Made by a program: the position numbers and the translations under genes. From Pelotomaculum schinkii (lineage in GTDB: Bacteria; Bacillota; Desulfotomaculia; Desulfotomaculales; Pelotomaculaceae), in contig NZ_QFGA01000002.1 in the NCBI RefSeq assembly GCF_004369205.1, positions 744,001-808,000 on the forward strand: a stretch of 64,000 nucleotides of DNA. The letters run 5' to 3'. Shown in pieces: positions 13,356-45,179 of this stretch (the first letter of the stretch is position 1; each line of letters starts with the position of its first letter). A model generated the notes under the pieces. That model worked only from the letters and a program-made list of their open reading frames with translations, did not search any database and was not told where the DNA came from.

Positions 13356-15344
13356 TTACATGGCCATTTCCAGGAGTTCGGCGATATCCAGGACCTGAAT
13401 TTGCTCCTGCATCCCCCGGCAGGCAGCCGTCTCCTCCATCAGCATCTGGCAATATGGGCAGGCAGTGCACAGCACGGATGCCCCGGTAGCAACCACCTGC
13501 TGTACCCGGCCGGCAGCAATCAGGTTTTCTGACACGGCCTTGGTCCAGAACCGGCCGCCGCCTGCCCCGCAGCAAAACGACCAGTTCTCCGAGCGCTGCA
13601 TCTCTAGCAGCCGGACGCCGGGCAATGCCCTCAATATTTCGCGCGGCTCACGGTAGACATCGTTGTAACGTCCGAGATAACATGGATCATGGTAGGTTAT
13701 CGTCGTATTGTTGTTTTTGGTGGGCTTTAACCTGCCTTCTTTTAACAAACCGGCCAGTAAGACGGAATGGTGGATCACTTCCCAATTACCGCCGAACTGG
13801 GGATACTCATTTTTTAAAGTATTATAGCAGTGGGCGCAAGAGGTGATAATCTTCCGGACGCCCAATTGATTCCATTTTCTGATGTTGTTTTTTGCAATTT
13901 GCTGAAAGAGCGCTTCGTGGCCCATCCTGCGTGCTGTTTCACCACAGCACCACTCGTCTGCGCCAAGAGTTGTAAAAGATAATCCGGCCTTCCTCATCAT
14001 ATTGTTCAGGGCTGCGGCTGCACGTCCGGCTTTTGGGTCAAATGAAGCGGCGCAGCCTGCGAAAAAAACATACTCCGCGAGGTTACTGCCTGCTATCGCT
14101 TTGTTGCCGGAGCTTGCCGACCAGCAGTTATTATCGTGACGGGCCACTCCCCAGGGGTTGCCGTGCGACTTGATGTTGCTAAAAAACTGCCGCATCTCGT
14201 CAGAGTAATCTTTTTTGGCCAGGACCAGATGACGCCGCATTGCAATAATCTTGGGAGTATGCTCGACAGAAACCGGACAGGCCTCCTCGCAGCTGCCGCA
14301 CATGGCGCAGCCCCAGATAAAATCTTTTTTATAGACATCGCCGATGATATTCTTCTTTAAGATTGCCTGTTCGGCAGCAGCCAGCTTGATGTCCTGCCTG
14401 GACTTCTGCTTAAGCAGAAGCGGCGCCCTCTCTTCGATGTGCTTGCGGAAACGGCCCTGCAGCGGCTTGGGCTTTACCGGCTCGCCGCTCTGGTGGGCCG
14501 GGCACTGGTCGTTGCAGCGCCCGCACTTCGTGCAGGTGTAAGCCTCGAAAAGCTGTTTCCAGGTAAAGTCCTCCATCTTATGGACCCCGGCCTTCTCGTC
14601 GGTTGCACCTTCCAGCTCGATTGGCTTAATCGCCCCCCTGTGCTCCAGCGAGTGCCAGTAAGTGTTGAAAGGAGCAAAGAGCAGGTGCAGGTGCTTGGAG
14701 TTGGGGACAATCCAGAGTAAAGAAAAAATGGCCAGGAAGTGCGCCCACCAGAAAATGGACGCTGCCGTCCCGATGACCTCTGGCGGCTTATTAACGAAAA
14801 AGTCGGAGAGCGCTCCGGCCAGGGGAGCGGGCCAAAGCTTACCGCCGCCTAACTGCAACGCCAGGTTGGTCCCGTGATACAGCGCTTCAGTTAAGACGAT
14901 AGTAAAAATGAGCAATAAAAGCCCAATAGCTTCGGTGTTATTTTTCAGCCATTCCGGTTTTTTGATCATCCGCCGCAAGAGACAGCCGGTTATGCCGGCA
15001 ATAACCAATATGATAAACAGATCTTTTACAAAGAGATACAGCGCGTTTTTCCCCACGAAAGGAATGCCGGTGTTAAAGAGCCTTTCGGCGGCCATGTTGG
15101 GAATACCCGGCAACAGGATCACAAAACCGTACATGATGCAGGCGTGGCATAAGCCAAAGAGCGGATAACGGCGGATCTTCTTTTGACCCAATACGTTAAC
15201 GGCAAAATATTTCAAGCGCTCAAGCGGCCGGTCGGTATGCTGCGCCGGTCTGCCCAGGCGGATATAACGAATACGCCGGTATATTTTATAAAAGAAATAC
15301 ATGCACGATCCGGACATCAAGAAAAAGAACAAATATCTTTCCAT
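13356..15344 (-). CDS. Membrane-bound FeS oxidoreductase, GlpC/HdrD-like (candidate Etf:quinone oxidoreductase)
   Basis: The 662-residue protein has an N-terminal half with about six membrane helices, resembling the cytochrome-b-type NarI domain. Two [4Fe-4S] motifs follow (CTKCGRCNDQCP and CAMCGSCEEACP). Two CCG cysteine-rich domains complete it (GCAASFDP, WCCGE, SCAHCYNT; then DPCYLGR, FCCGAGGGRF, TACPYCQ), as in heterodisulfide reductase subunit D. Proteins of this build beside etfAB move electrons from acyl-CoA oxidation to menaquinone in syntrophic bacteria. I choose ATG 15344 (MERYLFFFLM) with AAGGAATG upstream. An in-frame extension upstream lacks a binding site. It is the last gene of the long minus-strand run that includes the ECF operon. 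Confidence 0.85.
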   Translation of the reverse strand: MERYLFFFLMSGSCMYFFYKIYRRIRYIRLGRPAQHTDRPLERLKYFAVNVLGQKKIRRYPLFGLCHACIMYGFVILLPGIPNMAAERLFNTGIPFVGKNALYLFVKDLFIILVIAGITGCLLRRMIKKPEWLKNNTEAIGLLLLIFTIVLTEALYHGTNLALQLGGGKLWPAPLAGALSDFFVNKPPEVIGTAASIFWWAHFLAIFSLLWIVPNSKHLHLLFAPFNTYWHSLEHRGAIKPIELEGATDEKAGVHKMEDFTWKQLFEAYTCTKCGRCNDQCPAHQSGEPVKPKPLQGRFRKHIEERAPLLLKQKSRQDIKLAAAEQAILKKNIIGDVYKKDFIWGCAMCGSCEEACPVSVEHTPKIIAMRRHLVLAKKDYSDEMRQFFSNIKSHGNPWGVARHDNNCWSASSGNKAIAGSNLAEYVFFAGCAASFDPKAGRAAAALNNMMRKAGLSFTTLGADEWCCGETARRMGHEALFQQIAKNNIRKWNQLGVRKIITSCAHCYNTLKNEYPQFGGNWEVIHHSVLLAGLLKEGRLKPTKNNNTTITYHDPCYLGRYNDVYREPREILRALPGVRLLEMQRSENWSFCCGAGGGRFWTKAVSENLIAAGRVQQVVATGASVLCTACPYCQMLMEETAACRGMQEQIQVLDIAELLEMAM

Positions 15345-15418
15345 AACATCATTCCTTATTTGACGTTCCAGCTGAATTCGTATGCAGGACAACGACCCGG
15401 TCAGGCCTCACAATGCAG

Positions 15419-15683: not shown

Positions 15684-16418
15684 TCAATAATCCTCCAGGT
15701 GAACAGTTGTACAGGTTTCCCACTCCAGTCCGTCTTCCCGGCGATAAACCAGAAGGATACGTTTCCCTTCCAGCAGTACGGTCTTTAATTTGTTTCCCAG
15801 TCGCACCTCTTCATTATCGTGCAGGATATAACCGTCCAGGCTCTGTACCCTTTCCACAGAACTGCTGTTTAAAATCTCAGCCACATTTATGATCGCTCCG
15901 GGGGCTTTGAGTTTCAGCCGGCCCTGGAAGCGCCCGTCATTATTGGTCATTCTTAAGCCAACTCCCGCCAGCGCCCCGATCACGCCGATACCCGTACCAC
16001 CGTGTTCAGACAGGTGTACACCCAGCTTTCTTGCCAGTCTGTAGGCTTCTTCTTTGGTCATGATCCTTTTCTTGGTTTCATAACCATAAGCGATCAGACC
16101 CGCTGCATCCTGCAACTGTTCCTCTACCACTACGCAAAGGCCGGGGTCGGAACCAGGCGCGCTATCCCGTTCCAAAAATCTGCCGGCTTCTTCGATCAGC
16201 GGCTGCAGATAAGCGGCTTCAATATCAGCAGTGAAGCACATGGAGCTGTTGTGGGAAGTATAGGCTATCTCCGGATGCAAGAGCAGTTGATGGCGGGTAA
16301 GGCCCTGACAACTTCCCCAGCGCTGATTTTCAATAATCTTGATGATATGTTTAGCTGATATCCCGGTCGCGCCCTGGTCGATATTGTCTGTGTCATCGAT
16401 CCCTACATAGATTTTCAT
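15684..16418 (-). CDS. TiaS-like protein (tRNA-Ile2 2-agmatinylcytidine synthetase homologue)
   Basis: The 244-residue protein opens with YVGIDDTDNIDQGATGISA, the hallmark of the archaeal TiaS ferredoxin-like/catalytic region (there GIDDTD followed by TxYLA). It continues with HPEIAYTSHNSSMC and SEHGGTGIGVIGALAGVGLR, also TiaS-like. Archaeal TiaS is about 420 residues with a C-terminal OB-fold and zinc ribbon. This protein stops before them. Bacteria use TilS and lysidine for the same tRNA, so agmatidine synthesis is unlikely and a related ATP-dependent reaction on another substrate is more plausible. It sits 55 bp after the ECF S component gene, in the same direction. Confidence 0.65.
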   Translation of the reverse strand: MKIYVGIDDTDNIDQGATGISAKHIIKIIENQRWGSCQGLTRHQLLLHPEIAYTSHNSSMCFTADIEAAYLQPLIEEAGRFLERDSAPGSDPGLCVVVEEQLQDAAGLIAYGYETKKRIMTKEEAYRLARKLGVHLSEHGGTGIGVIGALAGVGLRMTNNDGRFQGRLKLKAPGAIINVAEILNSSSVERVQSLDGYILHDNEEVRLGNKLKTVLLEGKRILLVYRREDGLEWETCTTVHLEDY

Positions 16419-16473: not shown

Positions 16474-17064
16474 TCAGGTTTGCCAGGAAGCGGCCAGACG
16501 CGGTTTTAACCGCTTAATCAGCACTGCTGCCAGAACTCCTCCGGCAGCGCCAAAAACGACATGCAGCAAGGTCGCATAACCAAAGCCCATAGCCAGAAAC
16601 ACCATTGGGATATCAAGCATGACGCCCAGAACAATGCTGGCCAGCAGCTTGGACCAGCTGATTAAGGCCCCGATGATAACGCCCACCCATATGGATTCCA
16701 GCTTGTTCAAAAATAGAATCGCCAGGATATCCAGCAACACCCCCGGTACAATGCACTTGAAAGCCAGTAAGGGGCCTTCTTTACCCAAACCGAAAACAAT
16801 GGCCAGGATCCCGGAAATAATGCCCATGATGGCTCCGGCGCCGAATTTGGGGATTAAGCCCTTGCCCAACATCAGTAAGCCCATCCAGTATACGCTGGTA
16901 TGGCCCGGTATCCCGATGGGGAGTTGGAACACAAACCTGCTGACGCTGATTAAAGTCCCGAACATGGTCAGTCTGATCACATCGGCCAGCCCTATGTGAA
17001 AGATAAAGTTGTCCACCGGGTTTTTCAAATCAGCAGCCGTCTTTTCTTTTTCCATGTCTTCCAC
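16474..17064 (-). CDS. ECF transporter S component (substrate unknown)
   Basis: This 196-residue integral membrane protein has about six helices. The first carries an arginine-containing motif (VIRLTMFGTLISVSRFVFQ), and glycine-rich loops follow (GAIMGIISGILAIVFG, VFGAAGGVLAAVLIKRL), typical of S components that capture a vitamin or metal. The GTG at 17064 follows AGAGGAAA. It is the downstream member of a full ECF set (two ATPases, T component, two exported proteins, S). I cannot match it to a known substrate class from sequence. It differs from other ECF operons in having exported proteins between T and S. Confidence 0.8.
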   Translation of the reverse strand: MEDMEKEKTAADLKNPVDNFIFHIGLADVIRLTMFGTLISVSRFVFQLPIGIPGHTSVYWMGLLMLGKGLIPKFGAGAIMGIISGILAIVFGLGKEGPLLAFKCIVPGVLLDILAILFLNKLESIWVGVIIGALISWSKLLASIVLGVMLDIPMVFLAMGFGYATLLHVVFGAAGGVLAAVLIKRLKPRLAASWQT

Positions 17065-17089: not shown

Positions 17090-17533
17090 TTAATTGGCGA
17101 CATAAAATTTGGCGACCTCTTTAAGCATGACCCGGTTTCCATCCGCCTTATTGATCATCGCAAAGGTACTGTTGCTATTTGGAGAGAGGACAATGCTCCC
17201 AATCTCCCTGGAGCTCAATGTAAATTCCCCGCTGTCGCCTACCCCGCTCACCTCGATGGATTTATAATCACTAATCCCCGCTGAGCCAAGCACAAAGCCA
17301 AGTGATACTTCATTAGAATTTCCCGTGCTCTGCTTGAGTTCCCGTTCCTGTTCACCCAACTGCCTGATCACCCCGGCATCCAGATAAACAGCGATTTTAT
17401 CATACTGTACGACGGGTACAAGTTTGCCGTTTTGGCTGCCTTGCGCTTTGGTGAGCTGTTCAAAAAGAAAGGCGCCCCCGACTACCAGCACAAGAAGCAG
17501 GAGCCCGATCCCGACGCGTTTGTTAATAGTCAT
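17090..17533 (-). CDS. Membrane-anchored exported hypothetical protein (147 residues)
   Basis: One N-terminal membrane segment (VGIGLLLLVLVVGGAFLFEQ) works as an uncleaved signal anchor. The outside part is about 115 residues, beta-rich (VVQYDKIAVYLDAGVIRQLG, then SIEVSGVGDSGEFTLSSREI, ending VMLKEVAKFYVAN). No known domain. The RBS is AAGGGGAGC. The gene lies between an exported Ig-like protein and the ECF S component with gaps of 13 and 25 bp, so it is part of the transporter operon and probably helps the S component on the cell surface. Confidence 0.75.
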   Translation of the reverse strand: MTINKRVGIGLLLLVLVVGGAFLFEQLTKAQGSQNGKLVPVVQYDKIAVYLDAGVIRQLGEQERELKQSTGNSNEVSLGFVLGSAGISDYKSIEVSGVGDSGEFTLSSREIGSIVLSPNSNSTFAMINKADGNRVMLKEVAKFYVAN

Positions 17534-17546
17534 GCCGCTCCCCTTG

Positions 17547-18389
17547 CTATCCCTTTTTTCTTTTTCTTCTTAAAACTTCTACAGCCACCCAGCCAACCAG
17601 TAAAATCCCGGCGCCTACAGCCACCTCATTTTGCACCCGCAGTCCTTCCTCGAAAGCTGCAACCTTGGCCGTATCCGCCTCGCTGGGCGCCGCAGCCCCG
17701 CCTGGCGACACTTCATTGTTTTGATTTGCGGCCACTGTGACACCGGACTCGGCCGTATCTTCAACGGTTGCATTGCTTTGCTCCTTGACCTGATCAGCTG
17801 ACGGCCTTTCACTGCCGGCAGCCGCTGCCGCGGGAGCACTACCCGTAGACACGACAGACCCGGTATTATTAGCCTTTTTCTCCCCGGCCGTTTTAAACTC
17901 GATCGTTACCCCCCGGTTGTTAGTGCTCATGGACAGCGTGGAACCCCCATTCTTGGCCAGCAAATCCGGAGCAACATATAACTTGTAGTTGGTCCCCGGC
18001 GAAAGGGCTGTTGCCGGTTCCACCCAGATATATTGCCTTTTGGAAAAATCCACCGTATCATCAATTTTACTCAAATTAAGAGCTTTTTCATTGCCGTTTT
18101 CATCATAAAGATGAAAACAACGTTTATTTCTTTCCCAGTAGATTAAATAAACGACATTCTTGTCAAAATGCATGGTGATCTTTGGCTTCAACGACACATT
18201 CTCCGCGTCTATAACACTGGTTCCATCATCGAGGGTGGCTGACACCAGACTTAGTGGCTTAAACACACCTTGCGTATTGCCCGAGCCGTCGCCACCATCG
18301 CCATAGGCGGCTAAAGGCAGCACGACCAAAAGGGCGCTGAGCAACAGCATGAGCAACCCCGTTCTTTGCCCTGTATTTCTATGCCTCAT
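17547..18389 (-). CDS. Exported Ig-like (Big_5-type) protein with C-terminal membrane anchor, in ECF operon
   Basis: The protein has a signal peptide (residues 1-30), then one Ig-like domain (about 42-165). A low-complexity Ala/Ser/Glu linker follows (170-245), then a C-terminal membrane helix with a basic tail (GILLVGWVAVEVLRRKRKKG). The Ig-like domain carries the same signature as the surface proteins upstream: LKPKITMHFDKNVV, NKRCFHLYDENG, WVEPATALSPGTNYKLYVAPDLLAKNG. It is displayed outside but held at the membrane beside the transporter. The position (60 bp after EcfT, 13 bp before the next gene) suggests it presents the ligand to the S component. That role is inferred, with no known precedent I can name. 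Confidence 0.8.
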   Translation of the reverse strand: MRHRNTGQRTGLLMLLLSALLVVLPLAAYGDGGDGSGNTQGVFKPLSLVSATLDDGTSVIDAENVSLKPKITMHFDKNVVYLIYWERNKRCFHLYDENGNEKALNLSKIDDTVDFSKRQYIWVEPATALSPGTNYKLYVAPDLLAKNGGSTLSMSTNNRGVTIEFKTAGEKKANNTGSVVSTGSAPAAAAAGSERPSADQVKEQSNATVEDTAESGVTVAANQNNEVSPGGAAAPSEADTAKVAAFEEGLRVQNEVAVGAGILLVGWVAVEVLRRKRKKG

Positions 18390-18449: not shown

Positions 18450-19289
18450 CTAACGTAAATTCTGAAGCGACTGAACCTGCAGGCCCATGCCATAGATACA
18501 GATTAGCGGTAAAATACTTACCGTTATGCTTATGAGCAGCGCCGCCAGATCACAGCGGCAAAAGCGCAGTTTCCTGGTCCGGCTGTGGTGCGGCCCGCCC
18601 GTGTAGCACCTGCTTTCCATAGCCGCGGCCAGGTCGGTGGCCCGCTGCAGCGAACTCACCACTAGAGGTATGAGCACCGCCAGAGAAGTTTTCAAACGCA
18701 CCAGTTTCTTTGGTGATGTAAATGGCGCGCCGCGGGACTTCTGGGACCTGGTGATGGTCTCCGCTTCCTCCAGCAGGGTGGGTATAAACCTCAGAGAAAT
18801 CGTAATCAGCATGGCAAACTGATTTACCGGCGCCCCCAGGCGGACCAGAGGCGCAAACAGAGCCTCCAGGCCTCCTGCCAGCTTCATTGGTGAAGTAGTC
18901 ATGGTTAGGATGGTGGAACTCAAGAATAGAATGAGCAGGCGCAAAAATGTTGACAGTCCCCGGTATACGCCTTCTACAGTCACGGTCAGCGGCCCCAGGC
19001 TGAATAGAGAAACTCCCTGGGTATAGATGCACTGGGCCAGAAAACTACAGATAAAAATAATCCATAGCCATTTAATTCCGTGCAAGACCGAAGACAGGCT
19101 TGTTTTCGACAGGTAAATCACCACAAAAATCAACCCTGTGTTGAGCAGGAGCACCGGCCAGCTATAACTAACCAATATGGCGGTAACCATGGCCAGCCAC
19201 CCCAGGAGCTTGGTCCGAGGGTCCAATTGATGAATGATAGAGGTACCGGGCGTGTATTTTCCCAACTTCATTCTTTTCATCATTTTCAT
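18450..19289 (-). CDS. ecfT: ECF transporter T component
   Basis: At 279 residues it shows the EcfT layout: an N-terminal YTPGTSIIHQLDPRTKLLGWL, four or five membrane helices, then the coupling region with two short motifs (RFIPTLLEEAETITRSQKSRGA and ATDLAAAMESRCY). The alanine-arginine-glycine-type motifs contact the two ATPases. Its ATG overlaps the stop of the upstream ATPase gene by 4 bp (ATGA), so translation is coupled. It forms the energising module with the two ATPases, which in group II systems can serve several S components elsewhere in the genome. Confidence 0.9.
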   Translation of the reverse strand: MKMMKRMKLGKYTPGTSIIHQLDPRTKLLGWLAMVTAILVSYSWPVLLLNTGLIFVVIYLSKTSLSSVLHGIKWLWIIFICSFLAQCIYTQGVSLFSLGPLTVTVEGVYRGLSTFLRLLILFLSSTILTMTTSPMKLAGGLEALFAPLVRLGAPVNQFAMLITISLRFIPTLLEEAETITRSQKSRGAPFTSPKKLVRLKTSLAVLIPLVVSSLQRATDLAAAMESRCYTGGPHHSRTRKLRFCRCDLAALLISITVSILPLICIYGMGLQVQSLQNLR

Positions 19290-20134
19290 GCTTTCAACAA
19301 CCTGTCGATTTCACCGGCCGCTTCTTCTACAGTCAGCACCCCTGTGTTTATCGGCAGCCCCCGCTTTTTTAAATTATGCAGTAATTTCATATAGTCAGGC
19401 AGCAACAGGTGCTCATAAGGCAGCTCATCCCGCTCCAGAACCTTTCTGGTCGGGCCCCAGGCCTTGAGGCGGCCTTGATCCAGCAGGGCGACACGATCTG
19501 CCAGGATAATTAGTTCGTTAATATAATGCGAAACCATAATGACGGTCACTTTCTGTTCCTGCTGATATCTTTTGACGGTAGTAAGAATATGGGCGCAGCC
19601 CTCTGGATCCAAGCCTGCCGTCGGTTCATCCAGGATCAGAATATCGGGCTTCATGGCCAGGATACTGGCCACTGCAATGCGACGCCGCATCCCCCCGCTC
19701 AAGCACAACGGCGACAGATCCCGCACCTGTTCAGGGACAAGCCCCACACTTGCCAGTGCTTCATTAACCCGAACCGGAATTTCCGCCTTGTCCAACTCCA
19801 TGTTGTTTAGCCCATAGGCCAGTTCTTCAAATACTGTCGCTTCAAAAATCTGCTGTTCGGGGAATTGAAACACCAGTCCCACGGATTTCCATAGCTGCGC
19901 TCCGTTGTGCTTGTCCCGCGGATCAATGCCCAATACGGATATGCTTCCGGATTGCGGGGATAAAAGCCCGTTAAAATGCTGAATTAAAGTTGACTTGCCG
20001 GAACCGTTGGCGCCGACAACCCCCAGAAATTCGCCTTTTTCCACCGACAGGGTGATGTTATCAAGAGCCTTCTTCTCATTTGACGTCCCGCTATTGTATA
20101 CATAGCTTAAGTTGTTGATTTCAATAACCGGCAT
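19286..20134 (-). CDS. ecfA2: ECF transporter ATP-binding protein (second ATPase)
   Basis: This ABC ATPase of 282 residues shows Walker A GANGSGKST, Q-loop region FQFPEQQIFEATVFEE, signature LSGGMRRR, Walker B ILILDEPTAGLDPEG, and H-loop MVSHYINEL. The glycine-methionine-arginine signature and FPEQQ Q-loop are typical of EcfA2. Its start overlaps the upstream ATPase gene by 28 bp. The two ATPases form a heterodimer driving the membrane T component. Confidence 0.9.
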   Translation of the reverse strand: MPVIEINNLSYVYNSGTSNEKKALDNITLSVEKGEFLGVVGANGSGKSTLIQHFNGLLSPQSGSISVLGIDPRDKHNGAQLWKSVGLVFQFPEQQIFEATVFEELAYGLNNMELDKAEIPVRVNEALASVGLVPEQVRDLSPLCLSGGMRRRIAVASILAMKPDILILDEPTAGLDPEGCAHILTTVKRYQQEQKVTVIMVSHYINELIILADRVALLDQGRLKAWGPTRKVLERDELPYEHLLLPDYMKLLHNLKKRGLPINTGVLTVEEAAGEIDRLLKA

Positions 20135-20949
20135 ATACTGTTCTCCATCTGCTCCAAAGTGGTGATTTGCTCATCCAGCAGGTAACCGCTCTTCCTAAGC
20201 ATTTGAGCCAGGCGAACGATATTCGGCGGCTTTAAGTCAAGGTTCTTTTCCTCCCGGTTGAAAGCTTCCCAGGGAGGGGCGTCACAAACAATACTGCCTT
20301 CCTGCAGCAGGATCATACGGGCCGCCCCGGCCAGGTCTTCCATGTTGTGGGAGATCAGGATGATGGTAATCCCCTGCCGCTTGTTCAGCTCCCGTAAGTA
20401 GTCAAGAATTCCCTGCCTGCCGGTCTGGTCCAGCATGGAAGTCGGTTCGTCCAAAACCAGGTAAGCAGGCCGCATGGCCAGGGCTGCCGCTATGGCAACC
20501 CGCTGCTTTTGTCCCCCGGACAGCATGTGCGGCGACGTATGCCGCAGTTCGCTCAGTCCTACAATCTGCAAGACCTGGTCAACACGGCGCTCGATCTCCT
20601 CCTCAGGCAGGTCGAGATTCTCCGGCCCGAAGGCAACTTCTTCCTCGATCACCGGACTTACCAGCTGGTTGTCCGGATTTTGAAAAACCATAGCCACCTG
20701 GCGGCGTATCTCCTTGATCTGCCGGCGCCGGCCGGTGTCCATGCCGTTCACTATAACCCTGCCGGTGGATGGAAGGTGCAAACCGTTTAATAGACGGGCA
20801 AGGGTGGTTTTACCCGAGCCGTTCTTTCCGGCTATGCCTATAAACTCGCCGGGTTTTATGGATAAATTAACTGCCTTTAAAGCACAAATTTTTTGACCCT
20901 GGCTGTTTGCATATTCTTTGGTGACATTTTGCAGTTGAATCCCCTGCAA
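20107..20949 (-). CDS. ecfA1: ECF transporter ATP-binding protein (first ATPase)
   Basis: An ABC ATPase of 280 residues: Walker A GKNGSGKTT, Q-loop MVFQNPDNQLVSPVIEEEVAFG, signature LSGGQKQR, Walker B YLVLDEPTSMLD, H-loop LISHNMEDL. The FQNPDNQ motif is the standard EcfA1 hallmark. The start codon is TTG at 20949, with GGGGGTGAT about 11 bases upstream. A three-hairpin repeat (21004-21091) lies between it and the SLH gene upstream. Confidence 0.9.
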   Translation of the reverse strand: MQGIQLQNVTKEYANSQGQKICALKAVNLSIKPGEFIGIAGKNGSGKTTLARLLNGLHLPSTGRVIVNGMDTGRRRQIKEIRRQVAMVFQNPDNQLVSPVIEEEVAFGPENLDLPEEEIERRVDQVLQIVGLSELRHTSPHMLSGGQKQRVAIAAALAMRPAYLVLDEPTSMLDQTGRQGILDYLRELNKRQGITIILISHNMEDLAGAARMILLQEGSIVCDAPPWEAFNREEKNLDLKPPNIVRLAQMLRKSGYLLDEQITTLEQMENSICRLLKSTT

Positions 20950-21142: not shown

Positions 21143-22297
21143 CTACAATAATTTCACAATAACGGCTGCTGCTTCCGCCCGGCTGGCAAAGTCTTGCGGC
21201 CGGAAGGTGTTATCCGGGTAGCCCGACATGAGCTTTTTCGCGCTAACCGTTTTCACCGCGTCCATAGCCCAGTAGGAAAGCTGATCAGCATCGCTGAAGT
21301 CTTGCCAGCTATCCAGCGCAGTCATTTTTTTCGCCAGACAGATCATGAGCGCCATTTGTTCACGGGTGACCGGAACATCGGGCGCAAAATTATTCCCGCT
21401 TGTACCATGCACGATACCGTTGGCGGCGGCGGTGGCGATATAGTCCTTAGCCCAGTGCTCGCCGGTATCGGCAAAGGCCGCACCGGCCTCTCCGGTCAGC
21501 TTGAGCGCCTTTACCAGTATGGCGCAAAATTCCGCCCGTGTGATTGTATCATCCGGTTTGAATGTATTATCCGGGTAGCCGTTCATGATCCCTGCCGCAA
21601 CAAGCTGCTTAATGCCGGCTTCAGCCCAGTGGCCGCCTATGTCGCTACAGCCTGGCGTTTGGCCGGGCGTCATTTGATTTGTGGCTTGCTCATCAGAGGG
21701 TACGGAAGTGGTTGTGCCGCCCGGGTCTATTCCTTTGGTAGTAAACGCAAAGGTATAGGTCTTCCCCAGCTTCAGCCCGTTGTTGAATTCAAAATCAGGA
21801 CCGATTTCAATAACATAGGTTGTGGCCGGCTGAAGCGAGGTGCTTTTGAGCGTCAACCCCAGCGGGGCGTGCGCAGTGATTCTTTTAAACCACCAGTCGG
21901 TAACTTCCATGTAGTAATTGTCAACTGTAATCGGCACAGTTACTATATTAGGCAATACAACAGGCTGGCTGGTTTGTTTATTGTAAAATTTCACGTTGTT
22001 TTCCAGGTTGGCTTCCAAGGTTTTGAAAAAACCGAAGGGAAAATACCAGACCAGTTCCACGTGATTGTAATCAATTAAATCGTCAAACTGATATTCCATT
22101 TTAGAACCCTGGTCGCTAATTAAAGTAGCCGCCGGCTCACATCCAAGCAGTTTTGCCATTCGAGCGGCGCTACCGGCGCCCTGTCCTTGATCCGTGCCGC
22201 TCTCTCCGTAGGCAACCAGGGGTATAGCTCCCAGCAGGAGCGTGATGAGCATTACAACAATCAGCCCGGAACGACACGAAATGCTCCTGATTAACAT
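21143..22297 (-). CDS. S-layer-anchored Ig-like protein with three SLH domains
   Basis: The 384-residue protein has a signal peptide (to about residue 32, LLGAIPLVAYGES) and an Ig-like domain (about 50-185). That domain is marked by VELVWYFPFGF, VTDWWFKRI, APLGLTL and ATTYVIEIGPDFEFNNG. A linker and three SLH repeats follow: HWAEAGIKQLVAAGIMNGYP, HWAKDYIATAAANGI and YWAMDAVKTVSAKKLMSGYP. SLH triplets bind pyruvylated secondary wall polymer. The same WYF-type domain occurs in the next protein upstream (residues 376-540). ATG 22297 follows AAAGGAAGG. The gene lies at the head of the ECF cluster in the same direction, so it may be a surface-bound binding protein for the same ligand. Confidence 0.85.
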   Translation of the reverse strand: MLIRSISCRSGLIVVMLITLLLGAIPLVAYGESGTDQGQGAGSAARMAKLLGCEPAATLISDQGSKMEYQFDDLIDYNHVELVWYFPFGFFKTLEANLENNVKFYNKQTSQPVVLPNIVTVPITVDNYYMEVTDWWFKRITAHAPLGLTLKSTSLQPATTYVIEIGPDFEFNNGLKLGKTYTFAFTTKGIDPGGTTTSVPSDEQATNQMTPGQTPGCSDIGGHWAEAGIKQLVAAGIMNGYPDNTFKPDDTITRAEFCAILVKALKLTGEAGAAFADTGEHWAKDYIATAAANGIVHGTSGNNFAPDVPVTREQMALMICLAKKMTALDSWQDFSDADQLSYWAMDAVKTVSAKKLMSGYPDNTFRPQDFASRAEAAAVIVKLL

Positions 22298-22321
22298 ATC
22301 GTTTACCTTCCTTTCCCAGGC

Positions 22322-22366
22322 GCACAAGGGAGTGAGGAAAACTGCAAATTTCCTCCTCCCTTGTGC
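22322..22366 (-). other. Intercistronic hairpin without T-tract
   Basis: Arms GCACAAGGGAG plus GAGGAAA pair with ATTTCCTC plus CTCCCTTGTGC around a short loop. No U-run follows on the minus strand. It sits between two surface-protein genes and more likely stabilises or punctuates mRNA than terminates it. Confidence 0.55.
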
Positions 22367-22390
22367 TTTACAACTAGTTATTAGCGGTGG

Positions 22391-25300
22391 TTACAGTGCG
22401 TTGACGATCACCGTCACCGCTTCCGCCCTGGTAGCGCTGCCCAGGGGCTGGAAGGTGTTGTCCGGGTATCCTTTCATAAGCCCGTTCTTTACCACCGTGG
22501 CAACAGCGCCTTTAGCCCACTCGGATATACCGGAGTTATCCGCAAAAGAGGTTCCTTCGGAGATCATGGTTAAGCGCGCGGCTTTTACAACCATTATGGC
22601 CATCTGCTCGCGGGTAATCAGGTCGTCCGGACCAAAAGTGTTGTCGTCATAACCGCTGAGTACTCCGTTGGCTGCTGCCGTAGCAATATTGTCTTCGGCC
22701 CAGTGACCGGCGGTGTCCGCAAAGACTTTACCGCTTTTGGGGGTAAGCTTGAACGCCTTTACAAGTATGGTGGCAAATTCTGCTCTGGTGATGGTACCGT
22801 CGGGCTTGAAGCTGCCGTCGGGATAGCCGCTGACAGCCCCTAAGGCCACCAGTTTTTCAATGTTGTTTTGAGCCCAGTGGCCCTCGATGTCATTCAAGGT
22901 TTCCTGCGTGGGTGTGACAACCGGGGTCGCTGCCTTTGGTACGGCAAACACGGCATATTTGGTGAAATGCTCCACCTCCACAGTGATGGTCGAACCGGAC
23001 ACCGTGCCCCCGATATTGACCCACTTTGCCTGGGACTCGTCGTAGTAAAATACGGCCGGTACCCCGTCCGATCCGATTTGGGAAGCGTCGAATTCAAACG
23101 TCAGGGCAACTTTTTCAGCAAAGCTATAGGCAGTCTTGTCTCCAACGCTGAACTCATACACGTCGCTTACCGCTTTAAAGCCTGCGGGAATTTCCGGCGG
23201 CGAGGTTACCTTCTTGATGTCAACCGTAACAGAGCCGGTTTCTTGTAGAGCATTGGCGGGTATAACTACCCTGGCCAGGTCGCCCAATCCGACTGTCGCC
23301 CCGACAGCCGGGTCAACAGAGGCGCTCCCGTTGGTATAGGTGGGGCCGTTGGTGGTAACAGAGATCCCACTGCCACCGGAAGTGGGAGAGCCGGAGCTTG
23401 CCGCTACAGTGAAGGTAACGACTTCGTTCGTGTTTCCGTTGTTTTCGCCGAGTGTATGTCCGTTATTGGCCGTCAAATTTTTGCTGATGATGATTTTGTA
23501 CGTTTTCCCGGAAGTCAGATTGCTCTTCGGGGTGATGAAGATATAGTGTAAGTTATCGTTAATTGTTGTAGAGTCTAATTTGAAAACATTTATGGGTACC
23601 TTTGTGCCTGTGCTGTCCTGCATGGTAAGACATTGCTGGTTGTTGCTCCAGACAGCATCGGTCGTCACACCCCGGTCAAAGTAAAGCCTGACCGTGGGGT
23701 TCACCGGCACAGTGGTACTCCCCTCTATGGGGCCGTCGTCGGTGGAATTGTCACCGTTGACTGTCGTCAGTGTGGAGCTTGCGGCAACGAAAGACAAAGG
23801 ATTTTGTCCGGACAAACCCTGTCCGGTAATGGCCGTACTCCAGTTGCCTGCCGCATCAACCGCTTCAACCGACCAGACATATGTGTTCGTGCCCTGTTGC
23901 AACCCTGTGTCGGTGTATGTGGTCGTACTGCCGTCTACGCTGCCCAATACTACCCCGTCACGTTTGATTCTGTAGTTGACGACACCTACGTTGTCCGTGG
24001 CTGCCGGCCAGGTCAGGGTGGCTTCGGTTTGATTTCTGCTGACTGTCACCGCGGCATTGTCCGGCCATTCAGGCGACCGTGTATCAGACCCGCCACTGTG
24101 GCTACCACCACTGTCGCCACCGCTAGACGCAGCAGTTTGGGTGTAAGTGACAAACCCGGTGAAATGTTTGGTCCAGATTACGAGATCATTATCAACATCG
24201 ATTTTGCCGTCCGTACCCGGCTCCAGCGCGTCACCAACGTCCTGGCTGTCGGAAGTCAGGACGTTGGTTATTTTAGTAAATGTCCCGTTCCTGTAGTAAC
24301 CTGCATCCTTGCCGGCCTGGCCGGGAATGAGGATCCTGACGGCATTGCTGAATGTCAGCTGCACGTCACCAAAGCCGACTTCTATTACCGCGTTAACTGT
24401 GGCGGTTTTCCCGGTATCCGGGGTTACGGTCACGGTGTTGTTGGGCTGTACTGCGGGCACGTTGATGGTGCCGTCCCAATTGGATGAAGCCGGAGCGCTG
24501 ATGGTGGTCCCGGCAGGTACGCGTACAACTACCGCGGAACTGCTAATACCCGTGTAAGCAGCTATGTCCATCGCCGGTAATGCACTGGTAGCTGTGGTAA
24601 CACCGGAGGTATTCAGCAATGAAGATAGATCGAGGGTGGCATTACTTACACTGGCCGGCACGGTCAATTGGAAAGAGGGAGTACTGGCGGTTACCGCCAG
24701 ATTCCTATTGCTGCCACTCTCATCAATAGTAACAATTGGACTGGTGATAGGTACTGCAGGGCTCTGCTCATTCGTTTTGGCCGTAGTCTGCAGATCAGTC
24801 AGGCTATGATTATTAGCAAAATCAGTGGCTTCCACCTTGAAATTATAGGATGAGTCAGGGCTAAGACGGCAAACATCATAGGAAGTGGCCTTACCGTCAA
24901 CTGTGGCCAGCAGAGTACCATTCTGGTAGATGTTATAACTAATGTTAGGAATGTACTGACCACTGTAAGTGTCATTATAAGCCACTCCGTGGTTATCCTG
25001 AGCGGCCGGCCAGCTTAAAGTCAGGCTGGTATCTCCGAGATTTGAGACCGTGAGGCTGCTGCCATCAGCCCAGGACGGAGCGTACTGCGAGGTCGCTGTC
25101 GTGGTGAACTCGAAGGTATAGGTGGTGGCGGTCGACTTTCCGCTGTTGAAGGTAAAGCCCTTGTCGATCTCCACGATGTAGGTGGTGGAAGGCTTGAGAG
25201 CGCGGCTCACCAGGTCGAGGCCGAGGGGAGAGTTGCCTCCTATCTGCCAGAAGTACCAGTCGGTAACCACCTGCTCGTTGATGGTCTGTCCGTAGTATGC

Positions 25301-26689
25301 CGCCAGCGGCCCGTTATACGTCTTCGGAGTGTTGGGCTGGGTCATGAGATTCGGGAGCGTTACCGGGGCGCCGCTGTCTTTCTCGTAGATCTTCACATAG
25401 CTGTTCAGGTTGCTCACCATGGGGTTAGCGAACCCGTTGGTAAAGTACCAGGCAAGCTGGACGTTGTCGTAGTCCACCGGGTCGACGTAGCGGTACTTCA
25501 GGACAGCGCCGGTCGCATCGTAGGATGTCTCCACCGCGTTTCCATCGAAGCCTACCATGCTTGAGCTGACAGGCAGCACGTTATTGGTTACCGCCTGAAC
25601 GGTGAGGGACTGCAGCTCGCTCCCGTCGGCTGCGGTAACCGTGCCCGGGGCATAGCTCAGGGTAACGGTAGCGGCGCTGGAGACAGAGTTGGCCAGGAAC
25701 AGCACGATCTGGTCGGTATTAGCTCCCAGGGCCACTCCTGTGACCGGGTCTGAGGTCGTACCGTTATTAACCGTGAATTGGTTTTGGGTCCCACTGGGAT
25801 CGGCCATCGCCCGGTCAAACTGCAGAATGACCTCCTTGCCCAGGTGATCGGTGGCGGCGCTGACCGGCGTCAGGCCGGCTGAAGCAACCAGGGTGGTAGC
25901 GCCCGTGCCCGGCCCGGCAGTGCTCCAGTTGCCGGCGGCATCCCCCGCCCGCACGGTGAAGGTGTAGGATGTATTTGCCGACAGGCCGGTAACGCTGTAG
26001 CTGTATAAGGCCCCGTCGACCGTACCAATTTTCGTCCCATCCCTGTAGATGGCATAAGAGGTCACGCCGGTATCGTCGGTGGCCTGGGTCCAGGTCAGGG
26101 TCAGGCCGGTCGAGGTTACACTGCCGGCTGTCAGAGTACTGCCATCCGGCCAGGTGGGATCCATGGTATCCGCAGGCTGGGGTACGCTGAATTGCCCGTT
26201 ATTCACTGTTGCCGCAACGGACTGGCCCTGGGCGTCAGAGAGAATTACCCCGCTTAATCCCAGTGCGCTTGTCTGTCCGGCTTGCACTCCTGCGGCAACC
26301 TGGAACTGCAGCTGCGCTACCGTGCCGCTGCCGCCGGGAACAGGTGTGTTGCTCCCGTTGTAGATGATCACCCTTAAGTTATCACCTACCGGGTTGGTGA
26401 TAACGGAAAAGCCGCTTGCCAGGCTCCCTGCGCTGGTTTGCTGGTAAATCAACTGGGTATGGTCATAGCTTAAGTCAAATTGCAGTCCGGTTACTTCACC
26501 TGAACTTGTTAAAGTAACCGGTACCTGGATCACATCCCCGGCAGCGCCGCTGACATTGCCGGCTGTCAGTACCGGAGCCGTACCAGCATTTGCCGCAATT
26601 TCAGCCGGTTGTAATACGCCTATGTATGAAGCAAGTAAAATTAATGCGAAGAGCAGTATGCCCATAGCTTTATTTCTGATGTTTTTCAA
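22391..26689 (-). CDS. SLH-anchored cohesin/FN3/Ig-like surface protein
   Basis: This 1432-residue protein has, in order: a signal peptide (1-32) and a cohesin module (about 35-173: VSGAAGDVIQVPVTL, GLQFDLSYDHTQLIY, GTVAQLQFQVAAGV). FN3 units and a Big_5-like unit follow, then the WYF-type Ig domain (376-540: VQLAWYFTNGF, VTDWYFWQI, SPLGLDL). More FN3, an unknown domain shared with the next protein (PASVSNATLDLSSLL to KHFTGFVTY), and another FN3 come next. The recurrent Ig-like domain spans about 966-1103 (NNQQCLTMQD). A ZU5-like domain and three SLH repeats (1266-1432) end it. TTG 26689 follows AAGGAGGG. Upstream in-frame codons are unlikely. The cohesin is a docking site for a dockerin, present in the protein encoded at 34725-39899. 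Confidence 0.88.
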   Translation of the reverse strand: MKNIRNKAMGILLFALILLASYIGVLQPAEIAANAGTAPVLTAGNVSGAAGDVIQVPVTLTSSGEVTGLQFDLSYDHTQLIYQQTSAGSLASGFSVITNPVGDNLRVIIYNGSNTPVPGGSGTVAQLQFQVAAGVQAGQTSALGLSGVILSDAQGQSVAATVNNGQFSVPQPADTMDPTWPDGSTLTAGSVTSTGLTLTWTQATDDTGVTSYAIYRDGTKIGTVDGALYSYSVTGLSANTSYTFTVRAGDAAGNWSTAGPGTGATTLVASAGLTPVSAATDHLGKEVILQFDRAMADPSGTQNQFTVNNGTTSDPVTGVALGANTDQIVLFLANSVSSAATVTLSYAPGTVTAADGSELQSLTVQAVTNNVLPVSSSMVGFDGNAVETSYDATGAVLKYRYVDPVDYDNVQLAWYFTNGFANPMVSNLNSYVKIYEKDSGAPVTLPNLMTQPNTPKTYNGPLAAYYGQTINEQVVTDWYFWQIGGNSPLGLDLVSRALKPSTTYIVEIDKGFTFNSGKSTATTYTFEFTTTATSQYAPSWADGSSLTVSNLGDTSLTLSWPAAQDNHGVAYNDTYSGQYIPNISYNIYQNGTLLATVDGKATSYDVCRLSPDSSYNFKVEATDFANNHSLTDLQTTAKTNEQSPAVPITSPIVTIDESGSNRNLAVTASTPSFQLTVPASVSNATLDLSSLLNTSGVTTATSALPAMDIAAYTGISSSAVVVRVPAGTTISAPASSNWDGTINVPAVQPNNTVTVTPDTGKTATVNAVIEVGFGDVQLTFSNAVRILIPGQAGKDAGYYRNGTFTKITNVLTSDSQDVGDALEPGTDGKIDVDNDLVIWTKHFTGFVTYTQTAASSGGDSGGSHSGGSDTRSPEWPDNAAVTVSRNQTEATLTWPAATDNVGVVNYRIKRDGVVLGSVDGSTTTYTDTGLQQGTNTYVWSVEAVDAAGNWSTAITGQGLSGQNPLSFVAASSTLTTVNGDNSTDDGPIEGSTTVPVNPTVRLYFDRGVTTDAVWSNNQQCLTMQDSTGTKVPINVFKLDSTTINDNLHYIFITPKSNLTSGKTYKIIISKNLTANNGHTLGENNGNTNEVVTFTVAASSGSPTSGGSGISVTTNGPTYTNGSASVDPAVGATVGLGDLARVVIPANALQETGSVTVDIKKVTSPPEIPAGFKAVSDVYEFSVGDKTAYSFAEKVALTFEFDASQIGSDGVPAVFYYDESQAKWVNIGGTVSGSTITVEVEHFTKYAVFAVPKAATPVVTPTQETLNDIEGHWAQNNIEKLVALGAVSGYPDGSFKPDGTITRAEFATILVKAFKLTPKSGKVFADTAGHWAEDNIATAAANGVLSGYDDNTFGPDDLITREQMAIMVVKAARLTMISEGTSFADNSGISEWAKGAVATVVKNGLMKGYPDNTFQPLGSATRAEAVTVIVNAL
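26229..26353 (-). repeat. 125-bp block identical to 29156-29280 (cohesin module)
   Basis: By eye, these 125 bases, from TGGGCGTCAGAGAGAATTAC to GGTGTGTTGCT, are identical to the second cohesin of the neighbouring gene, including third codon positions. The flanks differ at several sites. This points to recent gene conversion or module duplication. Confidence 0.8.
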
Positions 26690-26774
26690 TGCCTTACCCT
26701 CCTTAATACAGATCATTTCAGCTCCAATTCTGCAAGGTTTGTTATTGCTCCAAAGCATGTTTCATAGGTTGACC

Positions 26775-37700: not shown

Positions 37701-39899
37701 TCCGGAGCCGTCAACGTAACCCACCATTTTGCCGTCCCGGTACACTTCAACATAACTGATACAATCATTGTCATAGCACTGGATCTGCGGGAAGACAATT
37801 TTATAATTCTCGATATCAACAGTGGGAGGGGCTGTAAAAGCCACCGGTCCGGGTGCCGTATTGTCGTAGAAGACTTGATAGACAAAAGTCCCGCCCGCTT
37901 CCGGCACATCGGTGGCGGTTACACTAATCAGGTGATTATCAGCCTGACTGCGGTCCGGGGTCAGGTACAGCAGATCCCCGGTATATACAGACATCTTGTT
38001 GATATCCAGGCTCGGGTCCACCGGGAAAGTAAGGGTTACTTTCTTACCGTCTCCGGTACCCTGGAGATAAAACTCATAAGCAAACCCTACTGGAGTGATA
38101 AAATACTTTCTATTGATCACAGTACGCTTAAGACTGACCCGGTTGGTCGCAGCAGGATCAAGGTTTTCCGCCGTGACGGTGACATTGTCTTCAAAACAAA
38201 GAGGAACGCCGTTTTGCATCTCCACTTGGTTCCCGTCCTCGGTCAGGAAGACAGTCTTGCTGGCTGTTGCGCCATCCCCGCCTTTGACCCGCACTTCCAC
38301 CTGACTGGTTCCGGTAAGGATGCTTAATGCAGCAGCGTCAATTGCCGCCGTCGTTCCCGTATAGGGCAGGGCAGTCCAGTCACCGGAGGTGCTGCCGGTA
38401 ACAATCCGGTATTCCAGTTCGGCTCCATCAGGTAGTCCGGTCAAAGTTAATGTCTGGCCGGACAGCAAGGCGCTTGTCAAAGCAACGTCAGGGATGTCCG
38501 CCACTGTGGTAAAGGGAATCTCCACCGCAGGCTCACCCAGTGTACTTCCATTTTTAAAGGTAACGTCCGGTGATACGACAATCTTATAAGTTGAGTTGGG
38601 AGTTAACTGGGTCTGGGGTTGAACAAATAAGTTGGTTTTCTCGGGATTTTGTGTATTACTTGTATCTCCCAAACTAAATACATTCACGTTTGGCACCTGC
38701 TGGCCGCTGCTGTCCAGCAAAGTAATACAGTTGATATTCTGGGCAGTGTTAGCTATCACATTATAGGCAAACTTCAGTTTAATAATGGGGTTTAGCGGCG
38801 CCAATACACTGCTGTCAATTGCTTCTATATTCGTTGAAGTAATGTTATCGCTGTTGATGCTAGCCAGATAAGCGGTGACTCTGGTGTCCGCGGTTACAGC
38901 AGCTGCTGTAGTCGCATCAGCAGACGGGCCGCCGCTGCTCCAGTTGCCCGCCGCATCACCGGCTTCGACTTTAAAGCTATATGGAGTGCCGGCGGTTAGC
39001 CCGGTGACATTGTAATTCAACGTGTTTCCATCGACTGTCGCCAGAACCGTATTGTCCTGGTATATTTCGTAGCCCGTCACACCCACATTGTCGGTGGCCT
39101 CAGTCCAAGTCAGGGTCAGACTGTTTTGAGCCACATTACTCGCTGTCAAGGTGCTGTCGGACGGCCATGCGGGCGCTGTGGCATCGCTTTCAGGTGTTGC
39201 TGCTGTTGTTGCAGTCGTTGCAGTTGTTGCAGCGGCCGTAGGTCCGTTACTGCTTTCATTGCCGGCGGCATCCAGGGCTTGTACTGTAAAGGTATATGCG
39301 CTGGCAGCGCTCAGGCCACTGACGTCATAAGTTGCAACATCCCCCAGCGCAACTAAAAGTTCTGTCCCCTGATAGACTTTATAACCGGTTACAGCCGTGT
39401 CATCGCTTGCTCCTGACCAATTCAGAGTCAAGCCGGTCGCTGTTATATTGGCCGTGTCGAGCACTCCGTCAGTCCAGGCGGGTGCAGTTTGATCTGTTGA
39501 ACCCGAAGCAACTGTTGCTGTTGTTACTGTGACGCCGGGTCCGGTTGCGCTTTCATTGCCGGCCGCATCCAGCGCCTGCACTGCGAAATTGTAGGATGTT
39601 GCGGGCTGCAGGCCGCTGACGTCACAGGTATCGGCCCCATACACCATGGTCAGCACAGAGCTGTTCTCATATACTATGTAGCCCGTCACCCCGGTGTCAT
39701 CCTGGGCGCCGGACCAGTCCAGGGTCAGGCTTTGATCAGTCACAGCGGTGGCATTGAGCGTACCGTTTTCCCAGGCGGGCGGAGTTGTATCCGTTTCTGC
39801 GCCTGCTACAGTCAACGGCATGATATTAAGGAACGACGATAGCAACATCAATGCCGTGAGCAGCCAGGACAGGGCGCGACACTTTGCTTTAAAACGCAT
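34725..39899 (-). CDS. Dockerin-bearing FN3/Ig/beta-helix surface protein
   Basis: At 1724 residues, it has a signal peptide (1-34), three FN3 (37-330) and the recurrent Ig-like domain (about 342-466: LNPIIKLKFAYNVI, NINCITLLDSSG, LTPNSTYKIVVSPDVTFKNG). Unclassified beta domains, an atrophied-Ig domain, a right-handed beta-helix and three FN3 follow. Two beta-sandwich repeats resemble DUF1533/HID domains (about 1490-1660). A type I dockerin ends it (1664-1724), with two calcium loops, DVNNDGTVNILDVV and DLNGDGNINILDVV. It has no SLH, so surface retention probably goes through the dockerin to cohesins of the two downstream genes. The ATG follows AAGGAGG. It is the first gene of the minus-strand run and faces the XRE regulator. 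Confidence 0.9.
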   Translation of the reverse strand: MRFKAKCRALSWLLTALMLLSSFLNIMPLTVAGAETDTTPPAWENGTLNATAVTDQSLTLDWSGAQDDTGVTGYIVYENSSVLTMVYGADTCDVSGLQPATSYNFAVQALDAAGNESATGPGVTVTTATVASGSTDQTAPAWTDGVLDTANITATGLTLNWSGASDDTAVTGYKVYQGTELLVALGDVATYDVSGLSAASAYTFTVQALDAAGNESSNGPTAAATTATTATTAATPESDATAPAWPSDSTLTASNVAQNSLTLTWTEATDNVGVTGYEIYQDNTVLATVDGNTLNYNVTGLTAGTPYSFKVEAGDAAGNWSSGGPSADATTAAAVTADTRVTAYLASINSDNITSTNIEAIDSSVLAPLNPIIKLKFAYNVIANTAQNINCITLLDSSGQQVPNVNVFSLGDTSNTQNPEKTNLFVQPQTQLTPNSTYKIVVSPDVTFKNGSTLGEPAVEIPFTTVADIPDVALTSALLSGQTLTLTGLPDGAELEYRIVTGSTSGDWTALPYTGTTAAIDAAALSILTGTSQVEVRVKGGDGATASKTVFLTEDGNQVEMQNGVPLCFEDNVTVTAENLDPAATNRVSLKRTVINRKYFITPVGFAYEFYLQGTGDGKKVTLTFPVDPSLDINKMSVYTGDLLYLTPDRSQADNHLISVTATDVPEAGGTFVYQVFYDNTAPGPVAFTAPPTVDIENYKIVFPQIQCYDNDCISYVEVYRDGKMVGYVDGSGGFGSATFTDADSTLQVGQTYAYNMKAYDPMGNWSWCANNATPEDEEPNLTGGVKVLFSSDADVFATIRQQLEDGTIPIVYADGDSADHVVTDIQLPFTTSVDEQVRIWWTSSDPEIIKMSSAESARVIKTADGSDKVVTLTATIKRGEVIDPVTVSKQLRVTWEPWANGVMPVHTLSELQYAINRDNIQTIILKDGFPDFPNNVFDAKGKTLVVEPFAVNAINSAGVNIIIKNAVIDANQTSDPSLSSNPVLNYSFVALAQSRCGYNFENVEFKGGENLDSFILSHGGSLVLTNCRFGSTKVAPVIVTQGNAVNEPTGIRIENCTFDGAGKPGYGVLYDKIGTLTAVNNTITGYQGTMTSGGPSAGLLITPGRTATLIGNKISNCDDGILVQTKSTANTVINGVKITDAASAATAGTALLTNNELTAGSGPVVVVNNVDSVFHPVVLYQAATDDQTASSLGAPAWAANSTLTASAIDETELTLTWSGASDTVGVTGYRVYQGADLIAIVSNTSCHVTGLRPGQTYQFRVEAGNAEGKWSLDGPVTTAATLPNTLPVWPEGSKVTVTAVNPNSVILSWTPATDKEGLHAYWIGVNGQRTARWTAPGCLGCEVNELQPDTEYTFQIYAEDALSRLYSPGPSVTARTAASSAMNWSINNKIIVSNLKSTSLTLNWAQPWQSASSGLQYKLYQNGEVLTTFTYGYTLLPFTCRYNVTGLQPGTTYNFKLELMDTENSETTDGPSISVTTPAQGSQSGYIGQPVDIYFQGDTEWMNSISDVLLGVQGAWPDLGTSVFNQCTITPGHILIAAGVFENPKNDTVVIRANGYPDIFVNQIMVADSSSKLLAPSLAAAVNNTVGLSVKLTFADNEAWRAAITGITVDGAVVDKARYSVAAGVITIDPSVFTAAKDYAIVVNATGYNDAAVTQTMKALASNTWGDVNNDGTVNILDVVQAVNFASGKTTPTAAQLNAADLNGDGNINILDVVQMVKKAVGN

Positions 39900-45078: not shown

Positions 45079-45128
45079 TCGAGTAGGGTAATGCTGCAGT
45101 AATTCTCTGCAGCATTATCCCTCTCACA

Positions 45129-45159
45129 GAACCGTACGTACGGGCCTCGTATACGGCTC
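45129..45159 (-). ncRNA. Group II intron domain V
   Basis: On the minus strand a hairpin GAGCCGTATACG, a short GC-rich bulge/loop, then CGTACGTACGGTTC is followed by TGTGAGAGGG. This has the size and arms of a bacterial group II domain V, the catalytic core of the ribozyme. Confidence 0.75.
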
Positions 45160-45179
45160 CTGACAAACCTCGGTCGTTA

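Follow-up and report, generated by a model that had tools for sequence, protein, structure and literature searches.

The window analyzed here, a 64,000-nt stretch of the Pelotomaculum schinkii genome (assembly GCF_004369205.1, contig NZ_QFGA01000002.1, positions 744,001 to 808,000 of the forward strand), carries two genes for SLH proteins that share a long immunoglobulin (Ig)-like domain, called type A below, together with genes for an energy-coupling factor (ECF) transporter. Downstream of the small SLH gene and on the same strand follow, in order, genes for two CbiO-like ATPases, a CbiQ-like T component, a protein with a shorter Ig-like domain (type B), a Small protein, an S component, a TiaS-like protein and an HdrD-like Fe-S protein. 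The opposite strand encodes a regulator in which an HTH domain is combined with two further type-B domains (Table 1).

Table 1. Features of the window (positions counted from its first letter)
Feature	Coordinates	Strand	Basis or context
Type-A domain, copy 1	21731..22165	minus	small SLH protein 21143-22297 (domain + three SLH)
Type-A domain, copy 2	25094..25567	minus	large SLH protein 22391-26758 (cohesin, FN3, type A, type B, SLH)
Type-B domain	23399..23749	minus	same large SLH protein 22391-26758
CbiO-like ATPase 1	20107..20949	minus	Pfam ABC_tran 2.4e-34
CbiO-like ATPase 2	19286..20134	minus	profile search
CbiQ-like T component	18450..19289	minus	Pfam CbiQ 1e-39
Type-B protein of ECF cassette	17547..18389	minus	type-B domain ~17889-18194
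Small protein	17090..17533	minus	N-terminal hydrophobic segment + ectodomain
S component, YkoE/PF09819-like	16474..17064	minus	profile search
TiaS / methanogenesis-marker-11-like cassette protein	15684..16418	minus	TIGR03280 E 2.9e-15, below cut-off
HdrD-like Fe-S protein	13356..15392	minus	at one end of many cassettes
Type-B domain	38505..38798	minus	dockerin/HID/FN3 protein 34725-39899
HTH_3 (XRE-type) regulator with two type-B/Big_5 domains (~40729-41037, ~41140-41427)	40363..41481	plus	Pfam HTH_3 6.7e-11, Big_5 1.7e-15

Type-A and type-B domains of the surface proteins

The initial annotation claimed that the two SLH proteins share a domain, that this domain is unlike ordinary FN3 and may be a longer relative of Big_5, and that its conserved tryptophans suggest an aromatic-ring binding surface. 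All correspondences quoted there for a shared domain were present, and BLASTP aligned the type-A copies of the small and large SLH proteins with 51/124 identical residues (41%) at an E value of 8e-32, for a domain of ~145 residues. The copy 1 query in this comparison and in the host-genome search, like the first row of four alignments, was one edge residue short (SARMAK, where the protein has SAARMAK). Apart from SLH, the small protein holds little beyond its type-A domain. When the proteins of the host genome (G000; 4.4 Mb, 8 contigs) were searched, both type-A copies were found along with one weak partial match (E 0.11), which fell at the type-B copy of the dockerin protein 34725-39899.

The relationship to Big_5 (PF13205) was evident from profiles, with Pfam Big_5 alone staying below its cut-off. 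At the type-A site of the small protein no Pfam family rose above its curated cut-off, with Big_5 reaching 15.2 bits against 23.6 (E 0.037), and a Clostridium magnum protein with two type-A copies scored 19.7 bits, also under the 23.6 cut-off. A profile seeded with five short Big_5-like copies from the window took in the type-A copies in no more than four rounds, for a total of 76 stretches; the last-round E values of the window-type long copies, ~5e-9 to 3e-18, were obtained when these copies were already part of the profile. Judged from the sequences, type A is probably a specialised, divergent and longer Big_5-like Ig domain, and type B the shorter Big_5-like form, as the initial annotation had suspected for the long copies. 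Both follow the pattern of the SbsA-type Ig-like domains with the C-terminal L.P.TTY...N.G...FTT core, but type A is longer in the middle (WYF...TDWYF...PLGL) and remained below the cut-off in the copies examined. An FN3 or cohesin identity of type A was rejected because the best FN3 and cohesin stretches of both proteins fall elsewhere. A search of the sequences of solved structures with type-A, type-B and S-component profiles gave nothing meaningful.

The tryptophan claim was weakened by a wider alignment. In the 22 type-A copies that span 100 or more of the 149 model positions, the WYF tryptophan was W in 13 (I in 5, L in 2, F in 1, a gap in 1) and the TDW tryptophan was W in 13 (F in 5, a gap in 4), so that neither residue is kept in all copies and an aromatic-ring binding surface, as it had been stated, is not supported. 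The TDW tryptophan is invariant solely within a 13-copy subgroup of the window type, and the tryptophan patch is therefore a subgroup feature only.

Relatives of type A were found in C. magnum, where three neighboring proteins hold four copies, in Desulfotruncus arcticus, and in metagenome-assembled genomes of Pelotomaculum and Desulfoscipio. Matches, some of them partial, occurred in 8/113 genomes of a class sample and in 7/398 of a phylum sample, the host being counted in both and the phylum search scoring the best nine or fewer candidates per genome.

Type B is found in the cassette protein 17547-18389, in the second half of the large SLH protein, in the dockerin protein and twice in the HTH regulator. 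The cassette protein combines an N-terminal signal-like segment, one type-B domain and a C-terminal hydrophobic segment, as seen by eye. Type B scored above the Pfam Big_5 cut-off in the regulator, in the large SLH protein and at loci L047 and L073; the best stretch of the large SLH protein (35.4 bits) is its type-B copy, not type A. The aligned type-B copies often carry N..C(F/I/L), a feature seen in the alignment with no count made. The surrounding proteins are mosaics: cohesin occurs in the large SLH protein (one stretch) and in a further SLH protein, 26878-34476 (two stretches), and the protein 34725-39899 ends in a type I dockerin. By domain content this trio would form a small cellulosome-like set, and cohesin matches were also seen at L051 and L139. 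Shr-like hemoglobin-interacting domains (HID, PF07550) are present in two stretches of 34725-39899 and in eight of the L007 6567-15119 type-A protein.

ECF cassette and riboswitch placement

Two CbiO-type ATPases and a CbiQ-type T component adjoining an S gene, the gene criterion for an ECF group I system, are all present in the window. A close S gene was found in 11/113 class-sample genomes and in 4/398 phylum-sample genomes (host in both), a fifth phylum match, in G351, being distant. With the C. magnum locus (L004) added, the 14 class and phylum matches give 15 close cassettes. The S gene is accompanied by the Small protein and CbiO-type genes in all 15, although L070 (G020) has a single 146-residue CbiO frame with no Pfam match at E 0.01. 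CbiQ and the type-B anchor accompany it in 14/15, the fifteenth (L072, G014) stopping at a contig end; many of these genomes are drafts, and gene absences may therefore be gaps. The TiaS-like gene, which separates the S gene from the HdrD-like gene, is likewise conserved in the cassette. The cassette has a type-A gene as a neighbor in the window, C. magnum, D. arcticus, Pelotomaculum UBA3102 and G002; in G296 the neighbor is recognized by partial matches only, within a 3914-residue frame. The arrangement resembles the NikKMLQO and CbiMNQO systems (PMC2667541), in which the genes for the substrate component and for additional components (NikK/NikL) lie next to those for the ECF ATPase and T protein. 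It differs in that the S family here is YkoE-like and not CbiM/NikM, the accessory proteins are others, and some of the related cassettes stand under a molybdenum/tungsten (Mo/W)-cofactor riboswitch and not under B12 or Ni control.

This riboswitch, RF01055 in Rfam, heads the cassette or parts of it in 6/15 genomes (G006, G014, G015, G296, G375 and G460, of which G014/G015 and G375/G460 are same-genus pairs). Its copy number among the matches listed ranged from 1 to 30 per genome in 20 genomes and was 2 in C. magnum, and it is because genomes hold so many copies that placement matters. RF01055 was absent from L004, L005, L006, L049, L050, L069, L070, L071 and L074, and the window cluster is tied to Mo/W solely through its relatives. 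In the scanned loci, 7/20 genes with a type-A match were the first gene after RF01055 (L007, L044, L045, L047, L051, L052 and L076); the type-A-bearing genes just after RF01055 at L138 and L139 lie outside this count. Within riboswitch-bearing loci, 10/20 type-A/B genes compared with 13/127 other genes came first after the riboswitch (Fisher p 8.8e-5; the domain or the S gene had been the basis for picking loci, and gene starts are approximate), and 8 of the 13 other genes were themselves cassette genes.

Several neighborhoods carry additional features. In UBA3102 the HdrD-like gene is followed by a ModB-type molybdate permease (TIGR02141, 184.2 bits against 182.6; L006 13184-13993), which lies 5 kb behind the start region of the type-A gene in a cluster without a riboswitch; the next genes encode a DUF364 protein and a WtpC-like ATPase that scored below its cut-off. 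RF01055 was also seen directly 5′ of a gene for a TrmO-domain protein near the cassette (L072 4328-5434, L073 148-1255). At L047 8074-12281 the riboswitch is followed by a type-A SLH gene, a gene for a type-B anchored protein and one for a FecCD (BtuC-like) permease, a transporter of another type.

The HID stretches of 34725-39899 and of the L007 type-A protein, and the FecCD permease adjoining the type-B anchor at L047, could be taken to indicate a heme or hemoglobin acquisition system. The riboswitch placement instead indicates Mo/W, PF07550 is widespread beyond hemoglobin receptors, and NEAT was absent from the Pfam matches of the scanned proteins, the NCBIfam inl_like_NEAT matches falling on SLH parts. 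With no supporting regulation either, we rejected a heme reading of the HID domain and consider heme acquisition extremely improbable.

The wider S-component family

YkoE-type S components import thiamin or its pyrimidine, hydroxymethylpyrimidine (HMP). The cassette S components at L072 (26.2 bits) and L076 (28.2 bits) exceeded the PF09819 (YkoE) cut-off of 25.2 bits, as did a host-genome paralogue (L153, 60.3 bits), and the S component is in or near this family. That relationship is what speaks for an ECF system importing thiamin or HMP, with an indirect link to Mo/W. However, no thiamin pyrophosphate (TPP) or cobalamin riboswitch was found at cut-off in 47 sources scanned at the gathering threshold, where RF01055 was recurrent, and the S-gene neighbors include MobA-like, Oxidored_molyb and nucleotide-pyrophosphatase genes. 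The thiamin or B12 reading was rejected for want of a TPP or cobalamin element in these sources, and import of thiamin or HMP appears very unlikely. Unlike the YkoEDC thiamin-precursor transporter, with which it probably shares the S-component family, the wider family is linked to RF01055 and to SUOX-like and nucleotide-pyrophosphatase proteins.

The distant match in G351 led into this wider family. There the only RF01055 listed stands directly ahead of an S-like gene, which is followed by genes for a small ectodomain protein and for a MobA-like protein (NTP_transf_3 E 2.3e-31; TIGR02665 mobA 1.1e-25, below the model cut-off), and a formate dehydrogenase gene (TIGR01591, above cut-off) lies opposite. 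With the G351 S gene as query, relatives were found in 50/398 phylum genomes; the riboswitch search covered 30 of these, 7 more were covered in the separate 20-genome search, and 13 were left out. RF01055 occurred at least once in 28/30 genomes; in 13/30 a copy on the strand of the S gene lay no more than 2.5 kb upstream of it, where 0.04 were expected (10 genera, three genus pairs among the 13 genomes; Poisson-binomial tail ~1e-30 if the genomes are independent). In G205, G356 and G121 this upstream element was the sole copy among the matches listed. A scan of 20 wider-S loci with ~1.5 kb on either side contained RF01055 in 4. In the host genome, the S paralogue at C1:1738854-1739351 has RF01055 761 bases upstream.

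Among the neighbors of these S genes, PF00174 (Oxidored_molyb) matched 5/9 accessory proteins scanned (4 above cut-off, best E 2.5e-13) and left 4 without a match, and PF01663 (phosphodiesterase/nucleotide pyrophosphatase) matched all 11 long neighbors, which had been picked as alike, 8 of them from riboswitch-linked genomes. PF00174 gave no match up to E 1 on the Small protein of the window, which showed only remote similarity to the small SUOX-like accessory proteins of the wider family, with an hhalign probability of 83 and E 8.7e-6 in a single comparison.

The HTH regulator and a putative role in Mo/W-cofactor uptake

Full-length relatives of the HTH-Big_5 regulator (72-100% identity) were present in 6/22 genomes searched (G000, G012, G016, G020, G041 and G296), and all six also carry the cassette. 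The regulator gene adjoins the cassette in D. arcticus, G016 and G296, and lies on another contig in G012. It is divergent from a small SLH type-A gene heading the ECF genes in D. arcticus, follows the HdrD-like gene on the opposite strand in G016, and lies beside riboswitches in G296. Two short remnant-like matches to the regulator were seen at G243:C19:9641-9860; no close S gene was found in that genome. In a search for an operator, CAAATATTGTTTATTG was kept near the regulator's own start, perfectly in the window and D. arcticus and with one mismatch in L069; the G012 row of this upstream alignment is void, being from the wrong place. The only other window matches of CAAATATTGTTTATTG, at 2786 and 13019, adjoin no cluster genes, and an operator was not established. 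A CCTATAGG-like repeat was noticed by eye and searched for with just a single pattern on a single strand. The presence of two copies in a cytoplasmic HTH regulator suggests that the Ig-like domains may be more than spacers.

We propose, at about even chance, that the type-A SLH and cell-wall proteins belong to an ECF uptake system of the Mo/W-cofactor regulon and act as surface modules for capture or display. Type-A and type-B domains on S-layer-tethered proteins would capture or present a ligand on the outer side of the membrane. From there it would reach the S component by way of the membrane-anchored type-B protein and the Small protein, with import powered by the CbiO-CbiO-CbiQ motor. In related lineages the genes are preceded by a Moco riboswitch; in the window lineage the HTH regulator may set expression, its two type-B domains sensing this ligand, a related one or a partner protein. 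The ligand would be a Mo/W species or a molybdopterin-type compound, its class being taken from the riboswitch as was done earlier for vitamin S components (PMC3766115). By analogy with Co-type ECF systems that follow B12 riboswitches (PMC2667541), it could be a metal oxyanion; alternatively it could be a pterin cofactor, which the nucleotide pyrophosphatase, the accessory proteins with a molybdopterin domain and the MobA-like gene would favour for the wider family. The pyrophosphatase may act on molybdopterin dinucleotides. A more specific version, to which we give a rather low probability, is an ECF importer salvaging the Mo/W cofactor, with S-layer Ig capture domains of a new subfamily in one lineage and the cytoplasmic HTH-linked copy as a ligand reporter; molybdopterin would then be taken up, possibly after a secreted pyrophosphatase strips the nucleotide.

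A number of observations weigh against the proposed uptake system. No RF01055 was found in the window between 12500 and 42500, even at E 5, and only 2/12 strong type-A genes (E < 1e-50) follow the element (L007 and L051), the other ten, from the window, C. magnum, D. arcticus, UBA3102 and G002, having no riboswitch. The remaining five riboswitch-linked matches are divergent (L044, L045, L047) or partial (L052, L076), and the type-A genes of L046, L048 and L051:1257-5579 also lack a riboswitch. In 15 of the 28 wider-family genomes that hold RF01055, no copy was found in the 2.5 kb upstream of the S gene, and in G441, G148 and G400 the sole riboswitch lies 8 to 12 kb downstream. The p values serve as guides, because the loci were pre-selected, gene starts are approximate and some genomes are near relatives. 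PF09819 scores of the S components of the window (11.4 bits) and of G351 (24.2 bits) were both below the cut-off. A strict rule in which the HTH protein replaces the riboswitch was rejected, since G296 carries both and 4/15 cassettes (G002, G005, G023 and C. magnum) have neither a riboswitch nor a full-length HTH-Big_5 protein. Type-A-like genes without a close S gene occur in G043, G172 and G431, and no residue pattern in the type-A copies indicates a binding site. Structure predictions for the HTH-Big_5 protein (single-sequence) and for the S component had confidence (pLDDT) values of 45 and 55, respectively, both too low for use.

Several of these observations would suit inert spacer, scaffold or adhesion modules that are co-expressed with Mo/W metabolism, for example in formate-dependent syntrophic contact, and bind no transporter ligand: Big_5-like domains occur in long mosaic proteins that combine them with FN3, NHL, cohesin, dockerin, HID and SLH, type-A-like proteins are also found in genomes without a close S gene, no tryptophan is conserved throughout, and 10/12 of the strongest type-A genes follow no riboswitch. 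Yet type B is regularly found in the ECF cassette and also makes up the portion of the cytoplasmic HTH protein that does not bind DNA, a setting in which a spacer is difficult to envisage, and the small SLH protein is little more than a type-A domain and SLH. We regard inert modules as possible but doubtful.

Outside the cluster, group II intron matches (Rfam RF00029 and RF02001) cover 45078-47092 of the window on the minus strand, around an open reading frame, 45180-46448, that by eye resembles a reverse transcriptase.

Mo/W uptake is credited to Mod/Wtp/Tup ABC systems, and bacterial import of the molybdenum cofactor (Moco) or of molybdopterin has not been described to our knowledge. The related cassettes share the RNA element of the Moco/Tuco (tungsten cofactor) riboswitch regulon, whose published members include Mo/W transporters and biosynthesis genes; in the parts available of Regulski 2008 (PMC2408646) and Sun 2013 (PMC3766115) no ECF importer of Mo or the cofactor is named, and the coenzyme-uptake classes given in the latter include none for Moco. 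The word "S-layer" is absent from the main texts of both papers. In the accessible portions of other sources, a Clostridioides difficile riboswitch review (PMC11477304) mentions an ECF transporter only for queuosine, PMC13119186 describes CbiMNQO for cobalt, PMC3197636 covers cobalamin salvage and molybdopterin synthesis, and PMC2667541 covers Ni/Co ECF systems. Among the matches listed from titles and abstract openings of the open-licence literature, none linked ECF transporters to the Mo/W cofactor, and a first look for an association of ECF systems with surface proteins found none. The association of the wider S genes with RF01055 provides a testable substrate class for an S family that Pfam names a "cobalt" permease, and, with an HTH regulator that carries domains like those of the surface proteins, sensing of ligands by these Ig domains can be tested in solution.

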